In this document: in pieces, positions 1 to 42,458 of the stretch
Layout: the number at the start of each line of letters is the position of its first letter
Numbering within the stretch: position 1 is the stretch's first letter
DNA from: a virus
DNA length: 55,201 nt
Strand: one strand, 5' to 3'
Virus record (IMG/VR): IMGVR_UViG_3300022200_000056
Location: 1-55,201 of that record
Translations under genes and position numbers: made by a program
Notes under the pieces: model-generated
The model's database searches: none
What the model was told of the DNA's origin: nothing
What the model saw: the letters and a program-made list of their open reading frames with translations, nothing else

Positions 1-666
1 ACATTAGGTTATCAGGCGTTTTATTCAAACACCGCTAGTGGATACAATACAGGTTTAGGTGCGCTTGCTGGTTATTCAACCACTAGCGTACAGAATACCT
101 TTATTGGTCAGCAAGCGGGTTACTATGTAACTTCTGGTGAAAAGAACACCATTATCGGACGCTACAACGGCAACCAAAGCGGCCTAGACATCCGCACATC
201 CAACAACAACATCGTGCTGTCGGATGGCGATGGTACTCCTAGAATGTATTATAATGGAAGTAGTTCATATTGGTACGCACAAGCCATTTACGACAGAACA
301 TCTGCGGGGTCTGCCAATGTTCTTGTTGGTGCTGATGGAGGTTTGCAAAGAGCAACGTCTTCATTGCGTTATAAAAACACTATTGCTGACGCTACACACG
401 GCCTGACAGAACTACTTGCACTGCGTCCTGTTACCTACAAGGGCAATAACGATGGAGACAAAATTTTTGGTGGTCTTATTGCTGAAGAGGTGCATGATGC
501 TGGCCTTACAGAGTTTGTAGAATATGGTCAAGATGAAAACGGTAATGATAGGCCAGAAGCATTACATTATGGACATATGGTTTCGCTGTGCATCAAAGCC
601 ATTCAGGAACAGCAAGAAACAATCACAGCACTTGAGGCTCGTATAGCCGCACTTGAGTCCAACTAA
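1..666 (+). CDS. Tail fibre/spike protein, C-terminal part with peptidase S74 chaperone domain (5' end missing)
   Basis: The frame is open from base 1, so this is the C-terminal 221 residues of a longer protein. Residues 1-70 carry loose repeats of the type GYQAxYSNTxSGYNT and NTxIGxxAG, typical of trimeric fibre shafts. From about residue 115 the sequence follows the peptidase S74 (endosialidase chaperone) pattern: SSLRYKNTI with a Ser-Lys pair five residues apart (S120, K125), then the TELLALRPVTYK and FGGLIAEEV segments and a C-terminal helix rich in E and Q (about 195-219). In this family the C-terminal domain trimerises the fibre and is then cut off just before that Ser. It sits first in the fibre and tail block and is probably the host-recognition fibre. 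Its start lies outside the window. Confidence 0.87.
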   Translation, partial: TLGYQAFYSNTASGYNTGLGALAGYSTTSVQNTFIGQQAGYYVTSGEKNTIIGRYNGNQSGLDIRTSNNNIVLSDGDGTPRMYYNGSSSYWYAQAIYDRTSAGSANVLVGADGGLQRATSSLRYKNTIADATHGLTELLALRPVTYKGNNDGDKIFGGLIAEEVHDAGLTEFVEYGQDENGNDRPEALHYGHMVSLCIKAIQEQQETITALEARIAALESN

Positions 667-682
667 ACTACAGGAGTATAAA

Positions 683-928
683 ATGGACAATGAAATCACA
701 GCAGAAGAAATCGCACAGCACTACACAGCAATGGGTCACAGCGTTGACCTCATCAATGCTATCATTGCTGGCGACCACGATGAAACTATGGATGCGGATG
801 AACGTGTAGATTGCGTTAGCCGTAACGTAGAGCATCTGGAAATTATGGTGGCAAAAGACTTCTGGACATCAGAAGATATGACAGATGTTAATGCCGCTAT
901 TGCCGCAGGTAAGGCTTACAGCGCGTAA
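683..928 (+). CDS. Small acidic hypothetical protein downstream of S74 fibre
   Basis: This 81-residue acidic protein starts at ATG 683, nine bases after a good AGGAG box; an in-frame start 30 bases upstream would overlap the fibre gene and lacks that spacing. It is predicted helical, with the segments EITAEEIAQHYTAMGHSV and DMTDVNAAIAAGKAY. There is no signal peptide, membrane segment or Cys motif. Its stop overlaps the next start (TAATG), so it is translationally coupled to the 928 gene. I do not recognise a family. Its place between two fibre/tail genes suggests a role in fibre assembly, but that is inference only. Confidence 0.72.
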   Translation: MDNEITAEEIAQHYTAMGHSVDLINAIIAGDHDETMDADERVDCVSRNVEHLEIMVAKDFWTSEDMTDVNAAIAAGKAYSA

Positions 929-1704
929 TGTTTGGTGAATACGCATTAGCAGAACAAGCAATCGCTGACCAAGGAATACTGTTTCTTGGCTCACAGTCTG
1001 TTGATGCCAATTTCACGCAGACATCTACTGCTTTAGGCGTGTTTAGCGGCGAGTCGTATATGGTCGGCACATATTCAAAGCTGTCTGTAGGCGTAGGTAT
1101 ACTAGCTGGCATAAGCGACATGTCGGCACAGTTTGACCAGACATCCACTGCTTTGTATATAACCAATGCAATATCAGAGCAAAGCGCACAGTTTGATCAA
1201 GCCTCTGCTGGTAACATAGTAAAAGAAGATTCGGCTTCACTTGACGCACAGTTTGATCAAGACACTGTAGCCACTCTTATTGCTAGTGCTGTAGCTGAAA
1301 CAGATTTTGTATTCATACAGACATCTGACGGCAATGTCATAGCAGCGGGAACCGCAGACCTAGATATTTCATTCATACAGACCTCTGACGGGAACCTTAT
1401 TGCCTCTGCTTCTTCTGATCAAATAGCTTCCTTTACACAGACAACCAACGGAATAGCTATTAGAATCACCGAAGCAGAAATGGTGTCTGCATTTATACAG
1501 TCTACCGCTGCTAACTTTACTGCATCGGCTGATTCAGATATGATATTCGCGTTTGTGATGACCACAGACGGTAACTTACTGTGGGTTCCGATTGACGCAT
1601 CAACCAACCCAGAAATTTGGGCAGAAATTACGCACAGCGGAGACTCATGGACAGAGATCAACGCTAGTGTTACAATCAAAACATGGAATGAAATGGTGGT
1701 ATAG
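928..1704 (+). CDS. Repetitive tail-associated protein with about nine F-x-Q-T-S/T repeats
   Basis: This is a 258-residue protein made almost entirely of imperfect repeats about 23-25 residues long, each ending in a phrase such as FTQTSTAL, FDQTSTAL, FDQASAGN, FIQTSDGN (twice), FTQTTNGI or FVMTTDGN. Alternating hydrophobic/polar spacing suggests a beta-solenoid or stacked beta strands. The last 40 residues (from WVPIDAS) are Trp-rich and non-repetitive, and may be an attachment or capping piece. It is coupled to the upstream gene by TAATG and abuts the fibre gene at 1705. I do not know the family. Repeat architecture and position support an extended tail appendage. Confidence 0.75.
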   Translation: MFGEYALAEQAIADQGILFLGSQSVDANFTQTSTALGVFSGESYMVGTYSKLSVGVGILAGISDMSAQFDQTSTALYITNAISEQSAQFDQASAGNIVKEDSASLDAQFDQDTVATLIASAVAETDFVFIQTSDGNVIAAGTADLDISFIQTSDGNLIASASSDQIASFTQTTNGIAIRITEAEMVSAFIQSTAANFTASADSDMIFAFVMTTDGNLLWVPIDASTNPEIWAEITHSGDSWTEINASVTIKTWNEMVV

Positions 1705-2814
1705 ATGGCCTCAACTTACACTTCAAACAATGGTATAGAAAAGCCGTCTACTGGCGAACAGTCCGGTACTTGGGGCGATACCACTAACATTAACTTTGAT
1801 ATTATTGACCGCGCTCTTAATGGCGTTGGTGCTATATCTTTGTCAGGGACAACTCACACCCTGTCAACATCAGACGGCGCCGTGTCTGAAGGGGATTATA
1901 AGGTTCTTGTGTTGGGTGGGTCACCGTCTGGCACAAACACAATTACAATAACTCCAAGCGATCAACAAAAGTCTTACTTGGTTCACAACAACACTTCGCA
2001 GTCTGCTGTGTTTACCCAAGGCTCCGGCGGCAACGCTACAATTGAGGCTGGCGCTTTTAGTTGGATTTTCTCAAATGGCGCTGGCGCTAGTGCGGCTGTA
2101 ACTAAAATGACAATAGACACGGCGTCTATTGAAGACGGCGCCATTACCACTGCGAAACTTGCAAACACTGCTGTTGCCACCGCCAAACTTTCAGATAGCG
2201 CTGTTACATCTGTTAAACTTGCAGACGATGCTGTAACCTCAGTTAAAATTTTAGATGATGCTGTAGCCACTGCCAAAATTGCAGACGATGCAGTTACCAC
2301 TGCTAAAATTGTAGATGGCGCAGTTACTGTCGCTAAACTTGCAAGCAACGCTGTATTTGCTTCTGGCACCAAGATGTTGTTTCAGCAAACAACAGCGCCC
2401 ACAGGCTGGACTAAAGACACAACACATAACAACAAAGCGCTTCGTGTGGTGTCGGGGACAGCAAGCAGTGGTGGTACTGTAGCGTTTACTACTGCTTTTG
2501 ACAGTAAATCTGTCTCTGGTTCTATTAGCAACACAGTCTCAGGGAGCACTGCTGGCCACACTTTAACGCTATCTGAAATTCCAGCGCATACGCATACCAT
2601 TGGCTATAGAACGCATGATACATCCCCCGGCGCTGGCGGCGAGGAATCAGATTTGATTAGAAGCCCCAACACCACAGTCAATAGCGGTTCTGCTGGAGGC
2701 GGTGGGTCTCACTCACACGGCGCTGGCACTCTAGCAGTTTCATCTGCGTTTACTGGTACATCTATTAATATGGATGTCCAGTACGTTGATGTAATTATTG
2801 CAGAGAAAGATTAA
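1705..2814 (+). CDS. Tail fibre with decapeptide repeats and tail-collar-like C-terminal domain
   Basis: This 369-residue fibre has three parts. Residues 1-135 form an N-terminal domain beginning with the phrase NNGIEKPSTGEQSGTWGDT, common in phage fibre proteins. Residues 141-220 are eight in-register 10-residue repeats with consensus TAKLADDAVT, a pattern expected to form a trimeric rod. From about residue 222 there is a tail-collar/receptor-tip type domain: the APTGW phrase, EIPAHTHTIG and SHSHGAG His clusters, and the ending DVQYVDVIIAEKD. In related collar domains the HTH/HSH histidines bind a metal on the trimer axis. The start abuts the preceding stop. It is a separate fibre from the S74 protein and may determine adsorption together with it. 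Confidence 0.88.
   Translation: MASTYTSNNGIEKPSTGEQSGTWGDTTNINFDIIDRALNGVGAISLSGTTHTLSTSDGAVSEGDYKVLVLGGSPSGTNTITITPSDQQKSYLVHNNTSQSAVFTQGSGGNATIEAGAFSWIFSNGAGASAAVTKMTIDTASIEDGAITTAKLANTAVATAKLSDSAVTSVKLADDAVTSVKILDDAVATAKIADDAVTTAKIVDGAVTVAKLASNAVFASGTKMLFQQTTAPTGWTKDTTHNNKALRVVSGTASSGGTVAFTTAFDSKSVSGSISNTVSGSTAGHTLTLSEIPAHTHTIGYRTHDTSPGAGGEESDLIRSPNTTVNSGSAGGGGSHSHGAGTLAVSSAFTGTSINMDVQYVDVIIAEKD
2125..2364 (+). repeat. In-frame 30-bp tandem repeats encoding TAKLADDAVT decapeptides
   Basis: Eight consecutive 30-base units inside the fibre gene differ mainly at third positions and at the Leu/Ile position. They encode a rod-like shaft. Such repeats can expand or contract by recombination and so change fibre length. 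Confidence 0.8.
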
Positions 2815-2816
2815 AC

Positions 2817-3119
2817 ATGAAAATTGAGGTAAAGCAAAATTGCCCGCTTAATAATTTTGACCCCTGCCGTCAATTTGACTGTGCATGGTTTATGAAAATT
2901 AGCGGCACAAACCCTAACACTGGCGAGCAGACCGAAGAGTGGGGGTGTGCTATGGCGTGGCTTCCTATGCTACTTATAGAAAACGCACAGCAATCAAGAG
3001 CAACAGGCGCCGCTGTAGAAAGTTTTCGTAACGAGATGGTTGAGGCCAACAAGATTGGACATGAGATCATGGCTTTAAACGTAAAAGAAAATTTGAACAA
3101 AAACTTAATCGGGGGGTAG
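2817..3119 (+). CDS. Conserved hypothetical protein with four N-terminal cysteines
   Basis: This 100-residue protein has Cys at positions 9, 17, 22 and 44 (CPLNNFDPC, FDC, WGC), a set that could bind a metal or Fe-S cluster. A helical C-terminal half begins with WLPMLLIENAQQSRA. There is no signal or clear membrane segment. It starts two bases after the fibre stop and ends two bases before the 3121 gene, so it is part of the tail operon. I recall similar short Cys proteins in marine phage tail regions but cannot name a family. A small virion or assembly factor is the best guess. Confidence 0.72.
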   Translation: MKIEVKQNCPLNNFDPCRQFDCAWFMKISGTNPNTGEQTEEWGCAMAWLPMLLIENAQQSRATGAAVESFRNEMVEANKIGHEIMALNVKENLNKNLIGG

Positions 3120-8627: not shown

Positions 8628-9046
8628 TTATTACAGCGGTTCCGAGCGAGGCTCTGGACATCGTTTGGGGAGATGTAAAGAGACTGCTAAAAAAATCTAC
8701 AGACATATCAAAGGGTAAATATGAAGTTGAAGATGTCTATGATTCTATAAAAATAGGAGCGTTTGGGCTTTGGCTTATACTAGACGGCGATAAACCAGTG
8801 AGCGCAATAACGACAAGAATTATCCAGTACCCCGGTGGCTCAAGAGCGCTAGCAATGGACTGGGTAGGGGGCACAAGAATGAAGGAGTGGTTACCTTTAC
8901 TACAGGAAACCATGGAAAAATATGGAAGAGATTGCCAATGCACTCACCTAGAAGGATATGGCAGGAGGGCTTGGGGCAAGTGGCTAGAAAAATATAACTG
9001 GGAAACAGATTATATAGCCTATAGGATGGAGTTAAATAATGAGTAA
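8624..9046 (+). CDS. GNAT-fold-like internal virion protein (T7 gp13-like candidate)
   Basis: The 140-residue protein has an acetyltransferase-like layout: LWLILDGDKPVSAITTRI (strands), ALAMDWVGG, a helix (WLPLLQETMEKYG), then THLEGYGRRAWGKWLEKY and YIAYRMEL. It lies immediately before two internal virion proteins, the position of the T7 gp13/DUF2833-type GNAT-like protein needed for virion assembly. The acetyl-CoA loop is not convincing, so enzyme activity is doubtful. It overlaps both neighbours (ATGA and an 8-base overlap), so expression is tightly coupled. Confidence 0.65.
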   Translation: MIITAVPSEALDIVWGDVKRLLKKSTDISKGKYEVEDVYDSIKIGAFGLWLILDGDKPVSAITTRIIQYPGGSRALAMDWVGGTRMKEWLPLLQETMEKYGRDCQCTHLEGYGRRAWGKWLEKYNWETDYIAYRMELNNE

Positions 9047-10100
9047 ACCAAAGTCGTCTGCGCCTAGCGAACAAACGGTAGTACAAAGTAATTTGCCAAA
9101 GTATGTACAGCCATACTTTGAGCGGTTGCTTGAGCGCACTGAGGCCGAGTCAAAACGAGAGTACGAGCCTTACACTGGTCAGCGTATGGCTGATACTGGG
9201 CAAGATGTAGAGAGTTCTCGACAAATGATCCGCAACATTGCTGGTCAAGGTATCGCTGGCATCCCTGAAGCCACAGCCGCGAATACACAAGCGATGCAAG
9301 CCGCCCTTGCTCAGGCAGGTTTCCAACCATATCAATACCAATCTACAGCAGATCAATTCCAATTTGGTCCAGCAGGAGAGTTCGGCGGCGCCACTGCCGA
9401 GCAGTATATGTCACCATATATGCAACAGGTTGTAGATGTACAAAAAGAGCAAGCAATCCTTGACGCCCAAAGACAAAACGCCGCAAGAGCCGCCCAAGCA
9501 GTCCAAGCCGGAGCGTTTGGCGGTTCGCGCCAAGCGGTACAGCAAGGCTTGGCGGGTGAAGCGCTTACCAGACAACTAGGAGAGATCCAAGCGGCTGGTC
9601 AGCAGAAAGCCTTTGAGCAAGCGCAACAGCAGTTTGAACGAGATCGCACTGCTCGCATGGGTCTTGAACAACAGCAAGCCGCAGAAGCCGCGCGTATCCA
9701 ACAACAGTTGTTGGGTGAACAGGAGATGACAGCGCAAGAGCGCATGCAAGCGGCTAAGTTTGGTCTGGGCGCGGCAGAGTTGGGTGCTGGCCTTGGCATG
9801 AACCTTGCTCAACTTGGCGAGCAGGCTCGCGCTGGCGATGTTGACGCCGCTAGAATGTTGGAGGGCATCGGTAAAGATATCGAGGCAAGAGAACAGGCTG
9901 GCTTGGACGTTGCATACGAAGATTATGTGCGTCAAAGAGACTATCCACGCGAACAACTTCAGTTCTATTCATCCATACTCAGGGGCGTCCCTGTGCAACC
10001 TTCTACAGAAACTTCAAAATTCCAAGCCTACAACCCGATCCAGCAATTGCTTGGCACTGGCATTGCTGGCCTTGGTCTGTACAAAGGCATAACAGGTTAA
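9039..10100 (+). CDS. Internal virion / DNA-ejection protein, Gln/Ala-rich coiled coil
   Basis: The 353-residue protein starts with a polar region and the phrase QPYFERLLERTEAES. A long Ala/Gln-rich helical region (about 130-270, e.g. QRQNAARAAQAVQAGAFGGS and QQQAAEAARIQQQLLGEQ) is followed by a C-terminal Gly-rich hydrophobic stretch (LLGTGIAGLGLYKGI). This composition and gene position match podovirus ejection proteins that form a channel across the envelope. The GAFGGSRQAVQQG phrase recurs in marine podovirus proteins. No enzymatic motif is seen. Confidence 0.75.
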   Translation: MSKPKSSAPSEQTVVQSNLPKYVQPYFERLLERTEAESKREYEPYTGQRMADTGQDVESSRQMIRNIAGQGIAGIPEATAANTQAMQAALAQAGFQPYQYQSTADQFQFGPAGEFGGATAEQYMSPYMQQVVDVQKEQAILDAQRQNAARAAQAVQAGAFGGSRQAVQQGLAGEALTRQLGEIQAAGQQKAFEQAQQQFERDRTARMGLEQQQAAEAARIQQQLLGEQEMTAQERMQAAKFGLGAAELGAGLGMNLAQLGEQARAGDVDAARMLEGIGKDIEAREQAGLDVAYEDYVRQRDYPREQLQFYSSILRGVPVQPSTETSKFQAYNPIQQLLGTGIAGLGLYKGITG

Positions 10101-10103
10101 GCC

Positions 10104-12353
10104 ATGAACATTATTGACATCCAAGATCGACTCAAAGATTTTTCGGAAGACCAGCTAGTGAGAGAAATGCAGATGCCATCTGGCACTGCTCCTCAGTTTC
10201 TTGTGCTCAGTGAGATCAACCGCCGTAAGCGTGTGCGTGATGATTACAGCAAGCAAAAAGCTGCTAACGAAATGTCTGTAGCAGAAGAGGCTATCGCCGC
10301 TGGCGGTGTGCCGCAATCTGGTATCGCTGGAATGTCAGAAGCTATGGCTCCACAAAGTTCTATAGCACAAGGTGGCGTTGGCACTGCAATGAACCAAGCA
10401 ATGCGTCCTTCCCCTATGCCGCAACGAGCAATGTCTGAAGAAGAGGCAATGGGCATGCGCTCAGGTGGTCTCATGGCATATGGTCGTGAACTCGCAGACA
10501 GAATGGGTCAGGAAAAAATTGACCCATTCCTTAATGAAGTTGAAAGCATGGCAAGCGAGCGGTTTGGTGTGGGCTCCCAGCCTCAGCCAATGGTCTCACA
10601 ACAGCCATATATAGCTCAACGCCCGGGGTTTATGGGACGCCCACCTTTTGCTGAACGATCAATGTATCAAGTGGCTCAACCAATCAGAGACCCTAGGTTC
10701 CAATATAATACACTCCGCGGCAACATTGGCGCACTGCCTCCACCACAAGGTAAAGGCGGCATTGCTCAAATCATGCCAGCACAATTCTTCCAAGGTGGCG
10801 GTGTCGTAAAAGCACAGAACGGTTTGCCACTTGGCTTGCGTATAAATAACCCGGGGAACATTCGCCCCGGCGCTGGGTTTATTGGAGAGACCGGAGAGCA
10901 AAGCGGATATGCTCAGTTTGAATCCCCACAAACTGGACTTCGTGCGCTGGCTCGCCTTCTAAATACCTATGGCACACAGTATGGCATCAACACACCAAGA
11001 GAACTACTAAGCCGTTACGCCCCCAAGTCTGACAACCCTGAAAGTTTTGAAAACTATCTCAAGTATTTTGAGCAGGAAACTGGCATTGCTCCAGATCAAG
11101 AGTTTGATCTTGTTGGTCAGAGGGAAACTGTTATGCCAGCGATTGTTGGGTTTGAGCAGGGGCAACAGCCTTATAGCGAACAAGATTACTCCATGGCTAT
11201 TGAAGCCGCGAGCATGGAAGACCCAACAGATATCCAAGATTTATTCGGTGTGAACAAACGTCAGGTCTCTACTGTATCTCCAACGACAACAGATGCAGAT
11301 GAAGCTGTAGAAATCCCACCGTTGTGGCAGGATAACTGGGCCACCAAGGAAAGCGACTACAACCAATACGTCAAAGACGCACAAATGGCTGGTCAAGAAA
11401 TTGTTAACCCTTGGGAATATGAAGAACTGCAACGGCGCCGCGCTGGGAGAGAAGATGACTTCTTGGATGTGATCGATGAAGACCTTGTTGGTACAGAGTT
11501 TGAGAAGTACATTGGTAACCAAGATATGATTGGCAACACGGCGGCTGGCTCTGCAAGAGCGGCGGCTGAGGGGACCTCTCCATTTGATATCGCTGACCCA
11601 CGGACAGGAGAGCGCGGTGTTGGCGCCGCCTCAGTTGCAGAGGAAATTGCTGGTAATCTTGGCATTACCAGCCAAGAAGACGCAGAGATTGTAGGTAAGT
11701 CCGTTGTTGAGGCGATGGATGATCTGCCACCAGACGCCTCTACAGAACAGATCCAAGAAAAAACTGAAGCAATCATTGCGGGAGAGGGTGGACTTAAGAG
11801 CGAAGGCGCCATACAAAAAGCACAAGAGCAAGAAAATTCCGCCACCAGTGCGCTTGCAGATGCTCTTGAGTATACAACATCAGAAGAGTATGGCGGTATA
11901 GCCGCTGAGATTAAAGACCTTCAAGATATGCTGAAGAAAGAAAAAGACAGTGACAAATGGCTGGCTCTCGCTCAAGCAGGGATGCAGTTGATGTCATCTA
12001 AAGAGCCAACCCTTATGGGCGCTCTTGGCGAGGCTGGTCTTACTGGTCTTGGTGCTATGCGTGAGGCTCAGTCAAGATACCAAGAAGGTGTCATTGATCT
12101 TATTAATGCCCGCGCAAAACTAAGCAAAGGTATTAGCGAGTCTGATGCCGCCGCTACTTTACAGAAAACACTTGAAGCGCTTGGAGAAGTCGATGACCTC
12201 GGTGAGTTTAAGATTCAAGGCGGTGCACGGACGCAACTTGAGGCTCTAGCTAGGAGACTGTCTGGTCAAATTGGATCTGGTTCATCCGTGGACGTTGCGT
12301 CATTGTTAGCCGCGATGAATCAAAGTAATGCGACATCTTCAAACGCGAGTTAA
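10104..12353 (+). CDS. Internal virion protein with lytic transglycosylase-like domain
   Basis: This 749-residue protein begins with a helical phrase (IIDIQDRLKDFSEDQLVREM). Residues about 243-365 carry LRINNPGNIRPG, YAQFESPQTGLRALARLL, INTPRELLSRYAPKSDN and NYLKYFEQETG. This is the layout of virion-associated muramidase/transglycosylase domains that open peptidoglycan during ejection, comparable in role to T7 gp16. The rest is acidic and low-complexity (about 390-590) with a helical end. It lies between the coiled-coil ejection protein and the giant protein. The precise catalytic Glu cannot be fixed by eye. Confidence 0.78.
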   Translation: MNIIDIQDRLKDFSEDQLVREMQMPSGTAPQFLVLSEINRRKRVRDDYSKQKAANEMSVAEEAIAAGGVPQSGIAGMSEAMAPQSSIAQGGVGTAMNQAMRPSPMPQRAMSEEEAMGMRSGGLMAYGRELADRMGQEKIDPFLNEVESMASERFGVGSQPQPMVSQQPYIAQRPGFMGRPPFAERSMYQVAQPIRDPRFQYNTLRGNIGALPPPQGKGGIAQIMPAQFFQGGGVVKAQNGLPLGLRINNPGNIRPGAGFIGETGEQSGYAQFESPQTGLRALARLLNTYGTQYGINTPRELLSRYAPKSDNPESFENYLKYFEQETGIAPDQEFDLVGQRETVMPAIVGFEQGQQPYSEQDYSMAIEAASMEDPTDIQDLFGVNKRQVSTVSPTTTDADEAVEIPPLWQDNWATKESDYNQYVKDAQMAGQEIVNPWEYEELQRRRAGREDDFLDVIDEDLVGTEFEKYIGNQDMIGNTAAGSARAAAEGTSPFDIADPRTGERGVGAASVAEEIAGNLGITSQEDAEIVGKSVVEAMDDLPPDASTEQIQEKTEAIIAGEGGLKSEGAIQKAQEQENSATSALADALEYTTSEEYGGIAAEIKDLQDMLKKEKDSDKWLALAQAGMQLMSSKEPTLMGALGEAGLTGLGAMREAQSRYQEGVIDLINARAKLSKGISESDAAATLQKTLEALGEVDDLGEFKIQGGARTQLEALARRLSGQIGSGSSVDVASLLAAMNQSNATSSNAS
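10355..10370. repeat. Dispersed palindrome site, 3 mismatches
   Basis: AAGTTCTATAGCACAA inside the transglycosylase-type gene: the left arm is perfect and the right arm degenerate. Confidence 0.35.
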
Positions 12354-12355
12354 GA

Positions 12356-15300
12356 ATGGCAGTTGTATCTACCAAGAGTCCATTCACGGGGTTCGAGTAT
12401 AAATTTAAGATTGCTGGTGATCAGCCCACGCAACAAGAGCGTGAGGTAATTGCACAGTATCTTATCGCCACAGAAAAGCCATTACAGCAAGCGCCAGAAG
12501 ATCAGGAACTCATTGAGACAGAATCTCAAGGTTTCTTTTCTGGTGTTGGCTCTGGCGTATTTGGCAGTCTCGCACAGATACCTGCTGGTATCGTTGGCCT
12601 AGGCGAATCTGTTTTAGGTTATAACCCCGGCGAAACAACGGTAGGTCAGATCGCTGGCGGTGCATCAGATTACCTTCAGTCAGGTGTTGACTATGTGTTT
12701 GGCGAGGCTACTGACGATCCATACTCTAAGGCTGGTCAAACTTTAGGTTCCGTTGCCTCTTTCTTCATCCCCGGCTTAGGCGTAGCAAAAGGCGCGTCTC
12801 TTGCTGGCGCAGGTGCAAAGACAGCGACCGCTTTGGCGACAGCAACTGCGGCAACACAAGGTGTCGCTCTTGGATCTAAGGAGCAGATGGATAGAATCCA
12901 ACTTGCCCTTGAGAACGGAGAGCAACTATCTGACGACCAGATGCAATGGGCCACAATACTTGGTGGCGGCGTTGGGTCTACAGAAGCGCTTCCTATAGGT
13001 CGCTTGTTCGGTCAAATAGGAAAGATGTTGAGAAAGGTTCCTAAGGAAGAAAAGCAAACAGCAACATCAATTATTGCAAGACGGTTAAAGAACGCTGGCA
13101 CACAGGGACTTATAGAAGGCGGGCAAGAAGTTGGCGCCGCTATAATGCAAGACCTTGTTGAGCAAAATATATACAACCCAGATCTTGAAATTACAGCAAG
13201 CGCATATCAAGATGATGCTATTTATGGTGGCGGTGCTGGCGCCACATTACAGTTCTTGATTGATACTGTAGGCGGTCGCCGTGTGCGCAAACAGTTTGAC
13301 AAGGATCGTCAACTAGAGAACGACCTCAGAGAAGAGTCAAACGAAAAGCAATTTGATTTTGGCAATGCTCAAGCATCTCTTGGCTTTGAGCAGTACGATG
13401 ACGAGGGCAACCCAGTACAGCAACTGTTGCCACAGCCAGAAAAGGTAGAAAATCTAGAGGTTAATGTTGTTGATGAAACAACAACTGGCCCTACTGAAAA
13501 GCAGTTAGAAGATTCGGCGCGCCTGAAAAGACTGGCGTTAGACCCTACAGCGGAGAGAGAACTTCAAGCGCAAAAGATGCGCGAGATAACCGTTGGTGGT
13601 TTTGCTGGTGTAGATCTAAAGAACTTACCAGATGATGAGCAGTTGGCTGTTCGTCAGTACCGCACGCGCACGGGTATCGCCGATGTTGATTCAGAGATTG
13701 GAATCCAAGAACTTCAAGACATTGTTACTGACGCTTATGGCGCGGAGCGTGGCATTGCCGCGTACAATCGTGAGGCTACCAAACAAAAGCCAGCGTTCTT
13801 TGAGCCTAAGTTAACAGAGGCAGAGCAGGCACAGCAAAAAGAAGCAAGCATTGTTAACCAAAAAGTTATAGAGAACTTTGAGGACATGAAGCAGTCGCTC
13901 AAAGACGGTAGCATATTGGCTAAAGATGGTGTGATTAGCATACCAAAAATTCAGCGCAAGTATAAAATGAAAGTCAACGAAGCGCGCGCGGCAGTTGATG
14001 CCCTTGCTAAGAAGGGTCACGCTACACCTATATCACCTACTCAGCACAAAGCTGTTCTGCCTGAAGGTAAAGAGGAGCCTGTACAGTCTGATAAGCACAT
14101 CAAGTTAAGAGAGTTTGAATCTCAGTTAAATGCTCTGAGAGTGCAGGCCGCAGATGAACGCCGCAAACTGCAAGAACTGAAAGAGCGTGGCGCCACCAAC
14201 ACACAAGAACAAATGGAGATCGAGAACCAACAGCGCGTTGCTGACGAGACCAGCGCTAGAGTTGAGGCCATCTCTGAAAGAGTAAACACATTCCAAGCAT
14301 TGGCTAATCAGTCACAGCCAGACAACGCAGACAGAGTGAACGCTGTTCAGATCACGTCCAATGAAGCGCGTCAGGCCATGATGGAATCACTGAGCGCAAA
14401 GCCTACAGACGAGTACAAGCGCACTATCAACACAGTGGCTAACAACCTCCGCAAGTATTTGTTCAAAGACCTTGGTTTGTCTGATGTTGATCTAGTAACC
14501 CAGAATGTATTAGAGCCAGAGCGCATCAAAAGTGGTCATGTCGTAGAGGCTTATGAAACTTCAGGCGATGCTGGTCGCCGCATGATTACGATTGCCATGG
14601 AGGTCTATAATCCAAACCTGACAGAGGCACAACTTACACAGCGCCTCAAGGGTGTAGTAAACCACGAGGTGATCCACTCGCTTCGGTCGCTGGGTGTTAT
14701 CACTGACGCTGAGTTTAGTATGCTGGTTAAAGCGGCAACCAATCGCAAGTATGTGCGGTCAAAGGCTGGCAAAAACCTAGAGCGAGACTACACGTTCATG
14801 GAACGCGCTTCAATTATGAACCGTGGTCAGAGTCAAGAGTACATAGCAGAAGAAGCGGTGGCTGAAATGTTCCGCGCTTACGCTGATGGTCGCATCAAGG
14901 TCGGCGGAAAGCCGAAGGGTATCTTCCAAAAGATTGTACGCTTCTTTAAGTCTGTGTTCAGAGCCCACAGCGATGCAGGGTTTAACAGCGCCGCAGAATT
15001 GTTTGACGGCATCCTCGCTGGCAAGGTCGGCAAGAGACAGCGCAACCTACAAAAGGCCGCTCAAGCACCTGCTGGCTCTCGCTATTCCACTGCTGGCGTT
15101 CGCGCTGGGTACATGGTGCCACTTAAAGGTGACATTGAGCGCATTGGTCAAAACTTTAAGGATGTAACCAAGCGTGTACCTGAACTTGAAAAAGCGGCTA
15201 ATAGATTGGCTGATGGTGAGATCACATACGAAGAGTATGACAACATCGTCAATGAATTTAAGCCTATCATGCCGTATCAAACTGTCCCCGCTCCAGAAAC

Positions 15301-18300
15301 AATGGAAGACATGAGGCGTGCTTTGTCGGCTACTGCCCCAAAGAAACTGGAAAAGTTAGGCAAGGCATCTAACATTGAGGTTGGCACGCCAATTAGTTTA
15401 AGACTTGATATCCCAGCCTACAGGTATCAGGGAGTTTGGGTGCCCACCATTCATGACTCCAACAACAGAGTAATAGCGCATGAAGCGACAGCAGTAATAC
15501 AAAATGTGTCTTTCTCAGCGAGTGAAAGAACTGGCTTGCGGATTGCACAAGGTGGAGAGAAAGGCCCATACGCCACCATTAAAGGATCGTTCGTTGGGTC
15601 TAATCCTGACGCAGACTTTGCTCTGGCACAGCAACTTTTGCTTGACCCATCTGTTGTTCAGGTTGGATTTGATCCCACACGCCACGCATACTTCTATGAC
15701 AGGGTGACAACTCAGCCAGTTATTGGCGCTGATTTAGTCGTTCAGGTTGGCCCACTTGTCTTGGCAAAGAACCCACAGTTTGGTCGCAAGCCTGACTTCA
15801 AGTATTCAGTTGCTCGACTGCCTAACACGCCATCTAATCTACTTGGCCCGATTGATGTGGTTCATGATGTCAAGGATCGCTACCTTAAATCGGTTGGCAT
15901 GCCGATGCGGAGACAGGCTGAGTATGTACAAGTCAATGAAGATCTTGCGCGGCGTATTGCTGGGGCCTTCCAAGAGGCAGAGGACTCTCCTCTAGATCCA
16001 GATGTGCGCGCCGCATACAAGGCTATGGCTGATGAGACCAAAGCGCAATGGCAGTTTATTAAAGACACTGGTATCAACATTGAGTTTATCAAGCAAGGTC
16101 AGGACAACCCATACCCGAACGGATCGCGTGATGTGTTGCTTGATATCCGTGACAACAATCATATGTGGGTATTCCCAACTGAAGATGGATTTGGTGTAGA
16201 GGAAATCACAGATGAGCAAAGGGTTCTGAATCCATTGCTCGACAAGGTTGGCGAAAGAATTGATGGTCTTGACGTGACGGTCAATGACTTATTCCGTATT
16301 GTCCACGACTACTTTGGGCATGGGCTTGAGGGCGCGACCTTCACTGCCCGTGGCGAAGAGAACGCATGGCAAGCGCACGTTCGCATGTACTCTCCGCTTG
16401 CCGCAAGGGCTATGACAACAGAGACCCGCGGTCAAAACTCTTGGGTTAACTACGGTCCATATGGTGATCAGAACCGTGCCAACCCGGGCGAAACAGTTTA
16501 TGCTGATCAGAAACTTACGCTACTTCCTGACTTCGTTGTGAACGAGGGCGTGGCGCCAGACTTGGAGATTGAAGATGGAAGAATCGTTGAAGAAACAAAT
16601 GGACCAAACGGTGGAAGCCGAGTTGGCAGGTCAGACCTTGGTCGAGTCGGAAGAACTGGAGCAGGACAAGCTGGCGATGCAGGCAAGATACGCGCGCGCT
16701 CAGTCGCTCCTGTCCCGAGCGTCAACGAAGACGGCAAAGTCAGACTAACTCATTACTCAAGCGTAGAAGATATTGATACGGTAGACCCAGAACGTCATGG
16801 GTCTAACGTAATGATGCGTGGTGACGAGCGTGAGCGCCGTGTTGGCTTCTCATCCATATACCCACCTCGCAGTTACTATGGCTTGAATGTCGGGGAAGAT
16901 GGAGGGTACTCCAAGTCCAAAGACTCTTGGAACATTGGGGACTCTATGTACATTACAGAGGTTCCTCTTGAATCTTTGTACAATTGGGACGCTGACCCTG
17001 AGAACTTCAAAGACAAAGCAATAGCAACGATACCAGATCATCTTACTGTGTCGAGAGATCGCTCCAATCATGCGACAACCATGACTGAGAAGTTGATTAA
17101 GGATAGTGGCTATCTTGGCTACTATGCGAACAGTCCTATGGGTCTTGCTGCCGCAGTATTTAATCCGTTAAAAGTTAGACCTAACTTATCTGAGGCGCCG
17201 AAGTATTCTATCGCAAGGCTCACCCCTGAGCAGTACAAACTTACCAGCCTTGGTAATGTTAACACTGAGGTAGGTGACCCAGAGAACAGATACTACATAC
17301 CACAAGCACCATACAACACGGTAATACTTGTTGACGCTGCACAGAATATGCAAAACGATAGGGGCAATGTTGTTCTTGACTGGTCTGATCCAAATAACTG
17401 GGAAGAGATTGCTACTCTGATTGCGGCAGAGGCTGAAGCCGCCTATTCAAGAGACGGAAATGCTATTGGCTGGTATGACAAAACACTTAGCCTTGCCAAA
17501 AGAATTACCAGTGTCCTATTCCCAGATGTTAAGCCGGGGACTGCTGATGAAGCCGCGTATCAATACGCTACCGCTGTAACATCTAACGGTATTGGCGTGA
17601 TACCAAACTGGCAGTACGCCGCAGAGCAATACAGGAACTGGAAAGAAACTGGCAAGTTTATTGAGAAGGGCTTTGGCAATCAGGGCGGCTCAATGGTTAA
17701 TGCCTTTGCCCTGTATAACACCATGAAAGACATGGGCTACACCGACTTAGAGATCAAGGAATTTCTAAGCCAGAAGATGACCGTGCGTGAACTGCGTCAG
17801 AACAATGTTGTACGAGCGCTTGGTATTACAGTGGACGCCAAAGAGTCTGTCGATACTGAAGTGTATGTCTCTTATATCATGGGCCCTAAAATTGGTCAGG
17901 GCTTTTATCAGAACTTAAATGGCAACTTTGAAACACTCACCATGGATCGTTGGTGGATGCGTATGTTTAACCGCATAACTGGCGAGCCATTCAAAAATGT
18001 CACAGAGAGAACCGTTGCGAACAACGAGGCTCGAGTATTAAAAGCCGTAAACAACATGCCACTCAGAGAGGCAGAGGCTGAACTTGTAAAGGCATCTCTT
18101 GATGTTATTAACGCCGACATAGTAACAGATGCAAACGTGCAAGAGTTTGCCATAGAGTTAAACAACCAGTTTCAGAACTACAGAGTACGCAGGATTAAGG
18201 CTGGCTATGGCGAGCCAAAGAAATCAGAGTTACTGTTGGCGGCTGATACTGCGGCTAAAAACTTCACGACTCAAATGCAAGAAGATCCTCGCACGGCAAA

Positions 18301-21300
18301 GCAACGTACAGCAATGCGCGCTATTACCAATCGTGCCAGAGAGATTCTAAAGGAAGATCTTGGTATTGATATCAACAACGCTGACTTCCAAGCGCTGATG
18401 TGGTATCCTGAAAAGAATCTTTTCTATTCATACGGTGTCAGGAAGGGCATTGGTGATGACAACGATTACATTGATGGCGCTATAGCGCTACTACAAAAGG
18501 AAGGCTATGATGTCGAAACAATCGCAGAAGCACTCCCCGAAGCAGACCGAGTCATCGTCCGTGATCGGGCAAATTCCACGTTCTCAACTGAGGAATCTGG
18601 TGATGTCACTCCAATCACAGATGGACAAGAAGAAGGAAGCCCAAGAACTTCTGACCAAGAGCGAAAGCGAAGCATAGCGCTAGTACCAGAGCGCTCATAC
18701 AGTATGAGCAACTCTCGACTTGCCGAGCGAGTAGACCAGCAGACAGCCAAAATATCTTACAACAACGTATCAGGTTTGCTGTCCAAGGTTCTTGGTATAG
18801 CCACCTACAAGATCCCTAAGGCTCTTGGTATAGTCACTGACAAGGACAGAGCAGAGGCTTTGTCTGAAAGGTTCTTTACTAAGTATCAAGATGCACTGTT
18901 GCCAGTGGGTAAACTTTATGACGAGTTGAGCCGTGAGGGCGCCGACATTGTTGACGCCCACGATGCTTACCTACAGGAAGAACTAGCGCAAGGACGTGCT
19001 GGTTATCAGATTGAAAAGAACCAGCAGGAATTGTTTGAGCCTCTTGCTGAAAGCGTGAAGGCTTTGGACGCTACGGATACCAGCCTTTCATCGCTTGCCT
19101 CTGGCTCTAAATTTGTTAGAGATTATTTAGCAGAGGATCAGTCTCCAAAGATTGCACTTGCTGAAGCGTTTTTGTATGCACGGCACGCAAGAGAACGTAA
19201 CGCGTACATCTTAAATAAATACAAGCGCGGCGTTGGCTCTGGTATGTCAGATCAAGAAGCCGATTTTATTATGGATTGGGTGGCAAAGCAAGATCCAACA
19301 CTGCGCTCTCAACTGGACACTGTTGCATCATTTGCAGATGGCATCGTTCAAAGCACTAACAAGATACGCGAAGATGGAGACTTGATCCCAGACCCAGCGA
19401 CTGTACAGGCTGACCCAGAGGGCAAGTGGCAACCAACTAACTTCAGCAACTATGTACCACTGCGTGGAACAATGGAGCCTGACGAAGAGGCGTCTCAAGA
19501 TTACCGCAACTCATCGCGCCGTTCGCCCAACCTGTATGGTTCAAGGGGTAGACTTGAAGCGCGGATGCAAGGACGTGGTGATAGTTATGCCGTAAACATC
19601 TTGGCTAACTTGATGGCTCAGAATCAACAGTCCGTTCAGAAGGCAGAGCGCAACAAGGTTGGTAAGGCTTTCTATGAACTGATCACAAACAGGGACATTG
19701 ACACATCCAACTATGGTGAGGTCATCGACAAATATGATGACTCCATTCGTGACAACATCTTGACTGTTAAAATAAACGGTGAAGAAAAGCATATCGAAAT
19801 CTTTGATGACCGTATCGCACGCGCCCTGAAGGGTGCAATGACGCCAACAAAATCTTCTAGCCTTGTTAGGTTTATGGGAAAAATTAATCGCGTCCTGTCA
19901 AACCTAAACACATCTTGGAACCCAGAGTTTGTTATATCTAACTTTGCCCGTGACCTTGAGACAGCAGCAATTAACATCAATCAGTATGAAGAAAAAGAGA
20001 TAACAAGAGAGATTGTTAAGAACGCATTGCCAGCGGTGAAGGGCATCGCTGGGTTGCTTCGTGGCAATAAGGATAGTGAGTGGGCTAGAATCTACGAAGA
20101 GTTTGTGAAGGCTGGCGGTAAGAACGCGACCAACCAAATGTCAGATCTACAAGATCAGGTTGAGCAACTCAAAGGTATTGTTGATGGCATAGGTAGAGAC
20201 TCTAAGTCTGGCAAACTTGGCTTGGTAAAGAATGGCTTCAGCAAACTTGGCAAATTCCTTGAAGACTACAACACTGCGGTTGAGAACGGCGTTCGCATAG
20301 CAACCTTTGATGCGTTACGCAAGCGAGGATACAGTGAACAAAGAGCAGCACAAGCGGCAAGGAATGTGACTGTTAACTTTGCCAAGGGTGGCGAAGACAA
20401 GGTTCTCATGAACAGCCTGTTCCTATTCTATAACGCATCACTTCAAGGTTCGATGGCACTAGCCAATGCGGCTGTTCGCTCGCCAAAGGTAAGAGCATTA
20501 TGGGGTAGCATGTTTATTTATGGCATGCTTCAAGACCAGTTGATGGGTGCGCTGTCTGACGATGAGGATGGAGACGGTAAGAACGACTATGACGAGTTAA
20601 GTGACTACACTCTTGAGCATAATCTTATTCTACCTAACCCATTTGCAGGAGTTATTGGCGGCAAGTTTATTAAGATCCCACTTGCCTACGGACTTAACAT
20701 GGCGACCAACACAGGGCGCTCAATCAGCCGTGTTATGCGTGGTGAGTACACCGTTGGTCAGGCGAGCGAAACAATTACAGGCACTATGCTTGAACTCCTA
20801 AACCCTCTTGGCTCTGGAATTGAAGACTGGGAAAACATTGCGGCTCCCACTGTAGTAGACCCATTCGTTTCGCTAATGGTAAACAAGGACTACAAGGGCG
20901 ACCCAATCTACAAGTTTAGCTCTCCGTTTGGCTTGCAAAAGCCAGACAGCCAGATGTACTGGAACAACACCAGCCCTGTGGCTCGCACTATCGCACAGCA
21001 AATAAATTCTTTGACCGGAGGAACAGAGGTAACTCCGGGGTATATAGATTTTTCTCCAGATGTTCTTGAGTTTTGGTTTGACTACGTTACTGGCGCCGCT
21101 GGTGCGTTTGTAAGAAGGTCAGTTGAAACTCCGGTCAATGTAACCAAGGCTCTGGCTGGCGACTTTGACGGTGATCTTTCTCGAACACTGCCGATTGTAC
21201 GCAAACTAACAATCTCCCCATCATCATATGAAGATGTGGGAGTTTACATTGAGAACAGGGATAAGATCCTGAGCGCGCGTAAAGAACTTGAGACAGCAAT

Positions 21301-21547
21301 GGCATACAGAGACCCAGCAAACATACGCCGTGTCCGTGCTGAGTATGAAACATTGCTTAGTATATATGGCAATGTCAAGCGTATCGACAACGCTCGGAAC
21401 AGATTGATCAGACAGAAGAACACAATAAGAAACAATCCCATTATGCCAGAGGCAAGGAAGACTGAACTGATTGCTAAGATCAATGAAAGGATTAGTCAGT
21501 TGGTTAAAGAGGCCAACAAGACTATGTATGACGCTGGAATAAGGTAA
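12356..21547 (+). CDS. Giant polyvalent virion protein (3063 aa) with metalloprotease, ADP-ribosyltransferase-like and LPD38-like modules
   Basis: This one gene fills a sixth of the window. Modules by residue: 50-175 Gly/Ala-rich hydrophobic, possibly membrane-active; 400-620 charged helices with a winged-helix-like patch; 690-890 zinc metalloprotease-like with HEVIH at 770-774; 1010-1148 a beta domain (VGFDPTRHAYFYDR); 1180-1440 a domain with VHDYFGHG at 1316 and GEENAWQAH; 1463-1610 ADP-ribosyltransferase-like (HYSSVED, DPERHG, SGYLGYYANS); 1640-2080 with DRWWMRMFNRITG and LMWYPEKNLFYSYG; 2120-3063 the long C-terminal region with WNPEFVISNFARD at 2521, resembling LPD38. Domain borders carry repeated R/K-Y-S motifs (909, 1149, 1616; related RSYS at 2113). 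It follows the ejection proteins and is probably packaged and delivered into the host. Module names are from memory. Confidence 0.85.
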   Translation: MAVVSTKSPFTGFEYKFKIAGDQPTQQEREVIAQYLIATEKPLQQAPEDQELIETESQGFFSGVGSGVFGSLAQIPAGIVGLGESVLGYNPGETTVGQIAGGASDYLQSGVDYVFGEATDDPYSKAGQTLGSVASFFIPGLGVAKGASLAGAGAKTATALATATAATQGVALGSKEQMDRIQLALENGEQLSDDQMQWATILGGGVGSTEALPIGRLFGQIGKMLRKVPKEEKQTATSIIARRLKNAGTQGLIEGGQEVGAAIMQDLVEQNIYNPDLEITASAYQDDAIYGGGAGATLQFLIDTVGGRRVRKQFDKDRQLENDLREESNEKQFDFGNAQASLGFEQYDDEGNPVQQLLPQPEKVENLEVNVVDETTTGPTEKQLEDSARLKRLALDPTAERELQAQKMREITVGGFAGVDLKNLPDDEQLAVRQYRTRTGIADVDSEIGIQELQDIVTDAYGAERGIAAYNREATKQKPAFFEPKLTEAEQAQQKEASIVNQKVIENFEDMKQSLKDGSILAKDGVISIPKIQRKYKMKVNEARAAVDALAKKGHATPISPTQHKAVLPEGKEEPVQSDKHIKLREFESQLNALRVQAADERRKLQELKERGATNTQEQMEIENQQRVADETSARVEAISERVNTFQALANQSQPDNADRVNAVQITSNEARQAMMESLSAKPTDEYKRTINTVANNLRKYLFKDLGLSDVDLVTQNVLEPERIKSGHVVEAYETSGDAGRRMITIAMEVYNPNLTEAQLTQRLKGVVNHEVIHSLRSLGVITDAEFSMLVKAATNRKYVRSKAGKNLERDYTFMERASIMNRGQSQEYIAEEAVAEMFRAYADGRIKVGGKPKGIFQKIVRFFKSVFRAHSDAGFNSAAELFDGILAGKVGKRQRNLQKAAQAPAGSRYSTAGVRAGYMVPLKGDIERIGQNFKDVTKRVPELEKAANRLADGEITYEEYDNIVNEFKPIMPYQTVPAPETMEDMRRALSATAPKKLEKLGKASNIEVGTPISLRLDIPAYRYQGVWVPTIHDSNNRVIAHEATAVIQNVSFSASERTGLRIAQGGEKGPYATIKGSFVGSNPDADFALAQQLLLDPSVVQVGFDPTRHAYFYDRVTTQPVIGADLVVQVGPLVLAKNPQFGRKPDFKYSVARLPNTPSNLLGPIDVVHDVKDRYLKSVGMPMRRQAEYVQVNEDLARRIAGAFQEAEDSPLDPDVRAAYKAMADETKAQWQFIKDTGINIEFIKQGQDNPYPNGSRDVLLDIRDNNHMWVFPTEDGFGVEEITDEQRVLNPLLDKVGERIDGLDVTVNDLFRIVHDYFGHGLEGATFTARGEENAWQAHVRMYSPLAARAMTTETRGQNSWVNYGPYGDQNRANPGETVYADQKLTLLPDFVVNEGVAPDLEIEDGRIVEETNGPNGGSRVGRSDLGRVGRTGAGQAGDAGKIRARSVAPVPSVNEDGKVRLTHYSSVEDIDTVDPERHGSNVMMRGDERERRVGFSSIYPPRSYYGLNVGEDGGYSKSKDSWNIGDSMYITEVPLESLYNWDADPENFKDKAIATIPDHLTVSRDRSNHATTMTEKLIKDSGYLGYYANSPMGLAAAVFNPLKVRPNLSEAPKYSIARLTPEQYKLTSLGNVNTEVGDPENRYYIPQAPYNTVILVDAAQNMQNDRGNVVLDWSDPNNWEEIATLIAAEAEAAYSRDGNAIGWYDKTLSLAKRITSVLFPDVKPGTADEAAYQYATAVTSNGIGVIPNWQYAAEQYRNWKETGKFIEKGFGNQGGSMVNAFALYNTMKDMGYTDLEIKEFLSQKMTVRELRQNNVVRALGITVDAKESVDTEVYVSYIMGPKIGQGFYQNLNGNFETLTMDRWWMRMFNRITGEPFKNVTERTVANNEARVLKAVNNMPLREAEAELVKASLDVINADIVTDANVQEFAIELNNQFQNYRVRRIKAGYGEPKKSELLLAADTAAKNFTTQMQEDPRTAKQRTAMRAITNRAREILKEDLGIDINNADFQALMWYPEKNLFYSYGVRKGIGDDNDYIDGAIALLQKEGYDVETIAEALPEADRVIVRDRANSTFSTEESGDVTPITDGQEEGSPRTSDQERKRSIALVPERSYSMSNSRLAERVDQQTAKISYNNVSGLLSKVLGIATYKIPKALGIVTDKDRAEALSERFFTKYQDALLPVGKLYDELSREGADIVDAHDAYLQEELAQGRAGYQIEKNQQELFEPLAESVKALDATDTSLSSLASGSKFVRDYLAEDQSPKIALAEAFLYARHARERNAYILNKYKRGVGSGMSDQEADFIMDWVAKQDPTLRSQLDTVASFADGIVQSTNKIREDGDLIPDPATVQADPEGKWQPTNFSNYVPLRGTMEPDEEASQDYRNSSRRSPNLYGSRGRLEARMQGRGDSYAVNILANLMAQNQQSVQKAERNKVGKAFYELITNRDIDTSNYGEVIDKYDDSIRDNILTVKINGEEKHIEIFDDRIARALKGAMTPTKSSSLVRFMGKINRVLSNLNTSWNPEFVISNFARDLETAAININQYEEKEITREIVKNALPAVKGIAGLLRGNKDSEWARIYEEFVKAGGKNATNQMSDLQDQVEQLKGIVDGIGRDSKSGKLGLVKNGFSKLGKFLEDYNTAVENGVRIATFDALRKRGYSEQRAAQAARNVTVNFAKGGEDKVLMNSLFLFYNASLQGSMALANAAVRSPKVRALWGSMFIYGMLQDQLMGALSDDEDGDGKNDYDELSDYTLEHNLILPNPFAGVIGGKFIKIPLAYGLNMATNTGRSISRVMRGEYTVGQASETITGTMLELLNPLGSGIEDWENIAAPTVVDPFVSLMVNKDYKGDPIYKFSSPFGLQKPDSQMYWNNTSPVARTIAQQINSLTGGTEVTPGYIDFSPDVLEFWFDYVTGAAGAFVRRSVETPVNVTKALAGDFDGDLSRTLPIVRKLTISPSSYEDVGVYIENRDKILSARKELETAMAYRDPANIRRVRAEYETLLSIYGNVKRIDNARNRLIRQKNTIRNNPIMPEARKTELIAKINERISQLVKEANKTMYDAGIR
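13863..13878. repeat. Dispersed palindrome site, 2 mismatches
   Basis: AAGTTATAGAGAACTT inside the giant gene (encoding the phrase KVIENF). It belongs to the AAGTTCTATAGAACTT family. Confidence 0.45.
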
Positions 21548-41157: not shown

Positions 41158-41526
41158 ATGTATTCTGCTACTAAAGAAGTCGATCAAAAGATCGCAATTA
41201 AAATACCAGATCCTTCTGGATACAAACTCTTAATTAAACCTTTAGAAGTCCAAGAAAAAACTGAAAGCGGTATTTATATGCCTGACGCCCTTAAGAGCGC
41301 AGAGCAAACCGCATCGGTAATTGGATTCGTGGTCAAGATGGGCCCTGATGCTTACAAAGACGCAAGTAAGTTTCCGAACGGACCGTATTGTAAAGAAGGC
41401 GACTTTGTAATTTTTCGTTCTTATTCCGGCACACGGTTTAAGATTGAAAAGCAAGAGTTTCGCCTTATTAACGATGACACTGTCGAAGCAGTTGTCGATG
41501 ACCCAAGGGGATATACAAGAGCATGA
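41158..41526 (+). CDS. GroES-like co-chaperonin (Cpn10 family)
   Basis: The 122-residue protein follows the Cpn10 order: GYKLLIKPLEVQEKTESGIYM (N-terminal strand and start of the mobile loop), ALKSAEQTASVIGFVVKMGPDAY, then CKEGDFVIFRSYSGTRFKI and FRLINDDTVEAVVDDP. The mobile loop around EKTESGIYMPD should bind host GroEL. Co-chaperonins such as T4 gp31 let GroEL fold phage capsid protein. Its place between portal and scaffold supports that. The Cys is not conserved in the family. Confidence 0.83.
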   Translation: MYSATKEVDQKIAIKIPDPSGYKLLIKPLEVQEKTESGIYMPDALKSAEQTASVIGFVVKMGPDAYKDASKFPNGPYCKEGDFVIFRSYSGTRFKIEKQEFRLINDDTVEAVVDDPRGYTRA

Positions 41527-42458
41527 ATGATCCAGTAGAAAAATACGAAGACGACACCGAGATTAAATCTGGTGCTGATGAAAGTTCTATAGAACTTGAA
41601 ATTGTAGACGATACTCCTGAAGAGGATCGTAACAAGCCGCGCCGTTCAGACGATGCGGAGCCTGATATTCCAGAGGACGATGAGATTGCCAACTATGGCG
41701 AGAACGTCCAAAAGCGTATCAAGCAACTTAAGTATGAGTTCCACGAGGAGCGACGCCGCAAAGAGGAAGCGTCTCGGCTACAGGATGAAGCCGTATCATA
41801 CGCGCAAAAAATTTATGAAGAGAACCAGCGTCTCAAGAAAGCCCTTGAGGACGGCGAAGGCGTTCTGATTAATCAGGCAAAAGGCCGGGTTGAAGCAGAA
41901 CTAGATAAAGCAAAGTCAGCCTACAAAGCCGCCTACGAAAGCGGTGACCCAGATGCTTTGGTTGAAGCGCAAGAAAAACTTTCTGAACTTCAAGCAGAAA
42001 AACTTCGGGTTAATTCTTTCAGACCTCAAAAGCAAGCAGAGACTCCAGCGCCAGAATTAAAAAAAGCGCCACAGCCTCAAAAGCCAGACGAACACGCAAT
42101 GCGTTGGGCAGAAAAGAATGACTGGTTCAATAAAGATAAAATGATGACGGCGTTTGCCTATGGTGTGCATGAGGATTTAGTCAGCACTCATGGCATTGAT
42201 CCGCGTCGATCACCAGAAATTTATTATGAACGCATCGATAAAGAGATGCGGAAAAGATTTCCAGACAAGTTCGGTGAGCAAAGTTTTGAGGACGCACCTG
42301 CTCGCCAAACTGGTTCCGTGGTTGCCCCCGCTAATCGGAGTGCAAAAAAACCACGCAGGGTGCAACTTACCTCAACGCAAGTCTCTCTCGCCAAGAGGCT
42401 TGGCCTGACTAACGAACAGTATGCGGCGCAACTCTTGAAGGAGTCATCTAATGTCTGA
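41523..42458 (+). CDS. Scaffolding protein
   Basis: The 311-residue, highly charged protein has a very acidic start (DDTEIKSGADESSIELEIV), a long coiled coil (about 60-165, e.g. RIKQLKYEFHEERRRKEEAS), a Pro/Gln-rich linker and a basic C-terminus (SAKKPRRVQLTSTQVSLAKR). This matches phage scaffolds, in which a basic C-terminal helix binds the capsid protein. It overlaps the co-chaperonin (ATGA) and lies before the decoration and capsid genes. Confidence 0.82.
   Translation: MNDPVEKYEDDTEIKSGADESSIELEIVDDTPEEDRNKPRRSDDAEPDIPEDDEIANYGENVQKRIKQLKYEFHEERRRKEEASRLQDEAVSYAQKIYEENQRLKKALEDGEGVLINQAKGRVEAELDKAKSAYKAAYESGDPDALVEAQEKLSELQAEKLRVNSFRPQKQAETPAPELKKAPQPQKPDEHAMRWAEKNDWFNKDKMMTAFAYGVHEDLVSTHGIDPRRSPEIYYERIDKEMRKRFPDKFGEQSFEDAPARQTGSVVAPANRSAKKPRRVQLTSTQVSLAKRLGLTNEQYAAQLLKESSNV
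41582..41597. repeat. Perfect 16-bp palindrome AAGTTCTATAGAACTT
   Basis: The only exact copy of the dispersed palindrome, inside the scaffold gene near its 5' end (encoding SSIELE). It defines the family consensus. Confidence 0.6.

Follow-up and report, generated by a model that had tools for sequence, protein, structure and literature searches.

The large polyvalent protein (LPP) of 3063 amino acids encoded in this 55,201-base virus record, called the window below, carries at five borders between its modules a short ordered signal of the form [KR]-x-S-hydrophobic. Signals at non-homologous borders of one and the same protein resemble each other, and across relatives their similarity follows that of a zincin-like metallopeptidase domain in the same chain. 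Our favoured explanation, held with a little more than even confidence, is that of a polyprotein delivered by the virion, in which the resident zincin cuts the linkers and so makes the cargo modules swappable.

Gene, neighbourhood and modules

The open reading frame is intact in the record and has colinear full-length relatives, among them L013 (3106 amino acids) and L011 (2938 amino acids). The virus is a marine, podovirus-like phage infecting bacteria, and the window also encodes terminase, portal, scaffold-like, coat, tail and replication genes. The giant gene comes directly after the genes for an ejection protein and a virion-type protein and is the last of this ejection-gene block (Table 1). 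In podovirus-like phages the slot after the ejection genes is that of an ejected inner protein, and the 3063-residue protein is a candidate for packaging in the virion and injection into the host. As in LPPs generally, disparate predicted domains are mixed combinatorially among its relatives, a curated LPD domain is present (PF18857, LPD38; 114.5 bits against a cut-off of 27), and the gene lies beside virion and ejection genes. A search for near-identical DNA in phage records gave no match, and NCBIfam and PADLOC scans of the whole protein returned nothing.

In the head-gene block, a GroES-like Cpn10 (Pfam E 7.9e-14; window 41158-41526) is encoded between the portal and scaffold-like genes, and the scaffold-like protein, an acidic coiled coil (window 41523-42458), lies between portal and coat. 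No prohead protease was recognised in this block, and a scan of larger window proteins, which took in only part of the small ORFs, turned up no peptidase besides the zincin. A few relatives have two ORFs in place of the giant gene, through either a real split or an assembly or sequencing error; the break lies around the zincin in L003 (5038-5997 and 5948-12820) and L062 (7230-9110 and 8996-15766), and after module E in L035 (5129-9301 and 9305-13717).

Table 1. Features of the giant gene and its upstream neighbours, in window coordinates
Feature	Residues	Position	Strand	Basis
Gene for the 3063-aa LPP	1-3063	12356..21547	+	Exact ORF, ATG; LPD38 and PHROG matches
DNA ejection protein, upstream neighbour		9039..10100	+	phrog_4287, E 1.3e-16
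749-aa virion-type protein with endolysin/tape-measure-like stretch, upstream neighbour		10104..12353	+	phrog_873, E 4.4e-28
Module A, head	1-640	12356..14275	+	Hydropathy; conserved among relatives
Module B, zincin-like metallopeptidase	641-908	14276..15079	+	Alignment
Module C	910-1148	15083..15799	+	PF25735/phrog_586-like in second half
Module D, phrog_3170 family	1149-1446	15800..16693	+	HDYFGH, GEENAW, ETRGQNSW
Module E, ADP-ribosyltransferase-like	about 1458-1615	16727..17200	+	Foldseek 6kyf; viral-library match
Module F, all-helical	1616-2103	17201..18664	+	Model pLDDT 90
Modules G+H, conserved C-terminal tail of ~950 aa	2113-3063	18692..21544	+	PF18857, E 8e-33; alignment
Border signal 1 (B/C), RYSTAGVR	909	15080..15103	+	PSSM 14.3
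Border signal 2 (C/D), KYSVARLP	1149	15800..15823	+	PSSM 17.0
Border signal 3 (D/E), ARSVAPVP	1447	16694..16717	+	PSSM 12.2; adjoins predicted disorder
Border signal 4 (E/F), KYSIARLT	1616	17201..17224	+	PSSM 16.5
Border signal 5 (F/G), KRSIALVP	2104	18665..18688	+	PSSM 13.2; within predicted disorder 2079-2112

An earlier note, made from the sequence of this stretch alone, had described a modular protein with a membrane-active-looking head, an HEVIH metalloprotease-like domain, an ADP-ribosyltransferase-like domain, at least two unassigned globular modules and an LPD38-like tail, and the analysis bears out this division. The head contains hydrophobic, membrane-prone Gly/Ala-rich stretches (residues 64-82, 133-151 and 288-306 by hydropathy). 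In module B, HEVIH occupies residues 770-774, with H770, E771 and H774 invariant in the alignment and followed by glutamates E832, E833 and E837, so that the domain has both the HExxH and the later conserved glutamate of a zincin; HExxH is kept in all 209 near-full-length copies of the module, counted with redundancy. The B segment of the window matched no Pfam family, and 8 of 24 relatives weakly matched Peptidase_M13 (best E 0.0017). LPD38 covers residues 2742-2928 of the tail.

The two unassigned modules are D and F, both confidently modelled. D has the near-invariant motifs HDxFGH, GEEN and RGQNSW and no convincing PDB fold match; the model of F gave no PDB match in a fold search, and its relatives show weak DUF7178 matches. 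Profile searches of the PDB with the sequences of modules B to F yielded no significant match. For E, the top PDB fold match of a joint D+E model was 6kyf (Foldseek, prob 0.93, E 0.024), followed by MbcT, with low TM-scores because D sits in the same model, and a search of a viral library returned 'PolyVal ADP-Ribosyltransferase' (E 1.6e-4). The Pfam family ART-PolyVal (PF18760) was absent at E <= 1 for the whole protein and at E <= 0.1 for relatives of the module. The fold and library matches suggest an ADP-ribosyltransferase-like module, assigned at fold level only.

Among the viral contigs, the head with the zincin and the tail are constant, while the middle varies in which of modules C to F it contains and in their order, F preceding D in L054, L056 and L068. 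Module D also occurs in prophage-like giant proteins. It was further seen alone, as a short protein, in bacterial genome contigs (L229 4287-5198; L243 7827-8744; L244 7944-9236), and module C was seen within proteins of 945-1395 amino acids encoded between portal and coat genes in the Roseobacter phages CRP-207 and CRP-9 and in a Manatee Spring phage (L388 10600-13437; L391 10282-14469; L389 11563-14547).

A short signal at the module borders

The signal was apparent from alignment ends alone, which define borders without any training on them: [RK][YF]S lay within 12 amino acids of the start of homology in 101 of 184 cases (55%), against 21.5% expected. Across 80 relatives, [RK][YF][ST] ranked first of 736 tripeptide classes both at the starts and at the ends of homology blocks, by p values that ignore relatedness. 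Motif discovery by expectation-maximisation (EM) on 113 de-duplicated border windows, from which the window protein was excluded and in which its close relatives were included, returned [KR]-[YRFQK]-S-[RVIT]-[AIVRL]-[RPGS]-[LVIS]-[TPS] with a log-likelihood ratio of 412, compared to 206 in shuffled windows. A definition limited to [YF] in the second position proved too narrow, as relatives also use KRSRI, RQSRL, RKSIGR and DQSSVP, and a control of the discovery step with internal windows was discarded because it picked up module homology. A position-specific scoring matrix (PSSM) trained on the D, F and C borders and tested on the non-homologous tail border gave an AUC of 0.78 (p 4e-13); EM and PSSM on the tail border alone yielded a different pattern with weak transfer.

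Five of the six best PSSM scores in the 3063-residue protein fall at module borders (Table 1), the next best is 6.3, and no other window protein that was checked reached a score of 10. A match inside module G, away from any known border (RNSSRRSP, residues 2384-2391, window 19505-19528, score 11.2), is probably due to chance. The earlier note had listed four motifs as marking module borders. Those at residues 909, 1149 and 1616 are where it placed them; its fourth, RSYS at 2113, was misplaced, as RSYS at about 2112 scores only 2.5 and the border site nearby is the one at 2104, and the list lacked the site between D and E. At the two borders covered by models, predicted disorder at the end of module D (1413-1446) stops just short of the signal at 1447, and disorder at the F/G border includes the signal at 2104.

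In order to see where the signal occurs across proteins, sites were counted in 57 relatives that have both the zincin and the tail. At a score of at least 10, there were 126 sites between zincin and tail (65 kaa; 1.93 per kaa), a count for which the tail-border windows had belonged to the PSSM training set, compared to 5 before the zincin (50 kaa; 0.10 per kaa) and 4 after the start of the tail (55 kaa; 0.07 per kaa). Of 38 held-out windows just after the zincin, 14 scored at least 8, where random head or tail windows drawn from these proteins gave 0.40 +/- 0.63 and column-permuted PSSMs gave 2.9 +/- 1.9. An ordered signal thus recurs at borders and is rare within modules, as expected of a self-processing polyprotein. 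Sixty large proteins with D or F and without zincin B and the tail stayed at chance level (2 matches; 3.0 +/- 2.6 expected), and module C of phages CRP-9 and CRP-207 lacks the signal, which is therefore not a property of that module. At chance or absent outside proteins with zincin and tail, the signal belongs to the protein framework and not to the modules.

The association has exceptions. Four proteins with B and the tail (L104, L187, L306 and L329) have no site above threshold, and the D/E border site is present in only 3 of 12 D-E relatives. The notion that any zincin predicts the motif was ruled out by large D/F proteins that have other HExxH domains and lack it. RFSL peptides were found in two prophage-like LPPs of bacterial genome contigs, L234 (Halomonas; protein positions 2064, 2348 and 2619) and L238 (1435), which have an LPD38-type tail and a different HExxH domain and no member of the B family, so the signal may extend beyond that family.

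What reads the signal

Mean similarity between signals at non-homologous borders within one protein was 5.58, compared to -0.08 +/- 0.99 under permutation (0 of 5000), and interior [KR]xS control sites showed no such effect. Matched pairs include RKSIGRLV and RKSIGRVV in L294, RRAIGLLS and RRSIGLLS in L202, and DQSSVPVS and DQSSLPVD in L016; plain concordance of aromatic and non-aromatic signals within proteins was not significant. Between proteins, signal similarity, measured between non-homologous borders only, follows the identity of zincin B after correction for the tail, with a modest partial r of 0.18-0.20 and a Mantel permutation p < 0.001 that overstates significance for related sequences. 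This correlation persists without close pairs and after correction for composition, given B, tail identity makes no further contribution (p about 0.7), and at interior control sites the correlation with B is absent. All borders of a given protein seem to share one reader, for which zincin B is the best candidate, although B may do no more than trace shared history better than the tail does.

From this we infer cleavage of the linkers of a packaged protein with B as its agent, in the particle or after entry. Under the explanation that we favour, a constant head and zincin (A+B) and a constant LPD38 tail (G+H) would bracket swappable cargo, here C, D, the ART-like E and F; each border would hold the short signal in or adjoining a flexible linker, the zincin would cut at or beside its conserved serine, and separately folding effectors would be freed. 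In the present protein, such cuts would yield pieces of about residues 1-910, 911-1150, 1151-1448, 1449-1617, 1618-2105 and 2106-3063. Since the linker, and not the module, holds the cutting signal, a new module could be plugged in if its signal matches the resident protease. The earlier note's suggestion that its motifs might be processing sites, still a prediction, is strongly if indirectly supported by the place of the signals in or beside predicted disorder at two modelled borders, their co-variation within a protein and their tracking of the zincin. The virion RNA polymerase (RNAP) of phage N4, an LPP-type protein with a zincin metallopeptidase (MPTase), is packaged uncut (PMC5512222); the linkers of the present protein might accordingly be cut after entry only, or might act as recognition peptides and stay uncut.

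The latter alternative, in which the peptides are never cut and serve as recognition or docking signals for the portal, the inner core or a chaperone, or as stop-and-refold marks during threading through the tail, we consider rather unlikely. Binding of all copies to one partner would then explain the co-variation within a protein, which indeed suits any common reader and not a protease alone. The intact packaging of the N4 enzyme, the unfolding of ejected cargo proteins for passage through the tail of PhicrAss001 (PMC10172136) and the possession of a Cpn10 by this phage are also in keeping with docking. However, it is the zincin that the signals follow, although the conserved tail would be the likelier part to dock; the head and tail are almost free of them; and their location right at the module junctions, within or next to predicted disorder, fits cutting. 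It is improbable in our view that the linkers are cut by a protease other than B, be it a host enzyme acting after entry or a phage maturation protease that escaped recognition, and that B has some other role such as attacking host proteins. A basic-x-Ser peptide could fit several bacterial proteases, phage head proteases with a preference for Ser at P1' do act on packaged proteins (PMC9024508, PMC10052503), and small window ORFs were tested only in part. Against this stand the head block and larger proteins of the window, in which neither a prohead protease nor a second peptidase was recognised, as well as the known phage maturation sites, which are of the A-x-E type and not [KR]-x-S; a separate protease would also leave the correlation between signal and B unexplained.

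Two further explanations dispense with a dedicated reader or with any role for the peptide. That the pattern is a general trait of disordered linkers appears very unlikely. Basic, Ser- and Pro-rich residues are common in linkers and the modelled borders are predicted to be disordered, but at a score of 12 column-permuted PSSMs of identical composition find 8.5 +/- 3.1 sites compared to 81 with the real PSSM, large proteins that share the modules and lack B and the tail are at chance, and an order-specific similarity within proteins would not be expected. That the peptides are by-products of module exchange, with short homologous DNA at the borders acting as a recombination seed and no role for the protein sequence, can be given hardly any weight and is largely refuted by codon usage. 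The modules are clearly shuffled among relatives and the peptides do sit at the points of exchange; yet identical signal residues share their codon in 76 of 237 cases, where 81.5 would be expected from usage, and the signal serine is coded by both TCN and AGY, which are not interconvertible by a single base change. This indicates selection on the peptide and not on the DNA for recombination, and the signal is missing from these modules where they occur in other frameworks.

Relation to known systems and meaning

In LPPs of phages and plasmids, the zincin MPTase is a hub domain, and processing of LPPs by the MPTase has been predicted independently (Iyer et al. 2017, PMC5512222); speaking against cutting, the plasmid proteins ArdC and TraC1 are transferred uncut (PMC5512222). 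The present protein resembles the LPPs of that study in combining many disparate domains in one injected-type protein, among them an MPTase-like domain, a putative ART domain and LPD38, and in its ejection-gene neighbourhood. Unlike LPPs as described there, in an article whose text returns no mention of linkers when searched, its borders have a definable signal that co-varies within the protein and with the MPTase. The virion RNA polymerases of N4-like phages are likewise giant podovirus virion-type proteins with an HExxH domain, whereas Pfam and PHROGs revealed no RNA polymerase domain in the present protein.

The head maturation proteases T4 gp21, SPN3US gp245 and P1 Pro provide a precedent for phage-encoded cleavage of packaged head proteins. 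They mostly trim terminal propeptides at A-x-E type sites, whereas the signals described here lie between modules within the chain, and the candidate protease, a zincin, is itself part of the substrate. P1 gp23 is cut at E120|S121, with serine right after the cut (PMC9024508), and SPN3US gp245 prefers serine at P1' (PMC10052503); by analogy, the predicted cleavage beside serine would echo both, though the motif differs from A-x-E. The fold match of module E, 6KYF, is AcrIF11, a phage-encoded anti-CRISPR ADP-ribosyltransferase (PMC11383003). It heads the PDB matches of the D+E model but is a weak one, and unlike AcrIF11, module E is embedded in a virion-type polyprotein, with no common target known.

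LPPs with MPTases, and the prediction that they process themselves, have been described before (PMC5512222). The co-evolving linker signal appears to be new, as no report of a border signal was found in the open-access literature. Since 2017 it has been a question why metalloproteases are so frequent in phage polyvalent proteins; self-processing was proposed, and no named sites were found for it. The signals give explicit candidate cut sites and would account for easy module exchange. With D and F, two conserved candidate effector modules come into view that have no convincing match among solved folds, and effector modules would be delimitable from sequence alone, the stretch between two signals being one cargo. 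For the wider proposition we see evenly balanced chances: that a lineage of marine phages delivers its effectors as a plug-in polyprotein, in which a linker signal particular to the lineage evolves together with the zincin, and unrelated modules may thereby be exchanged freely if bracketed by the matching cut signal.
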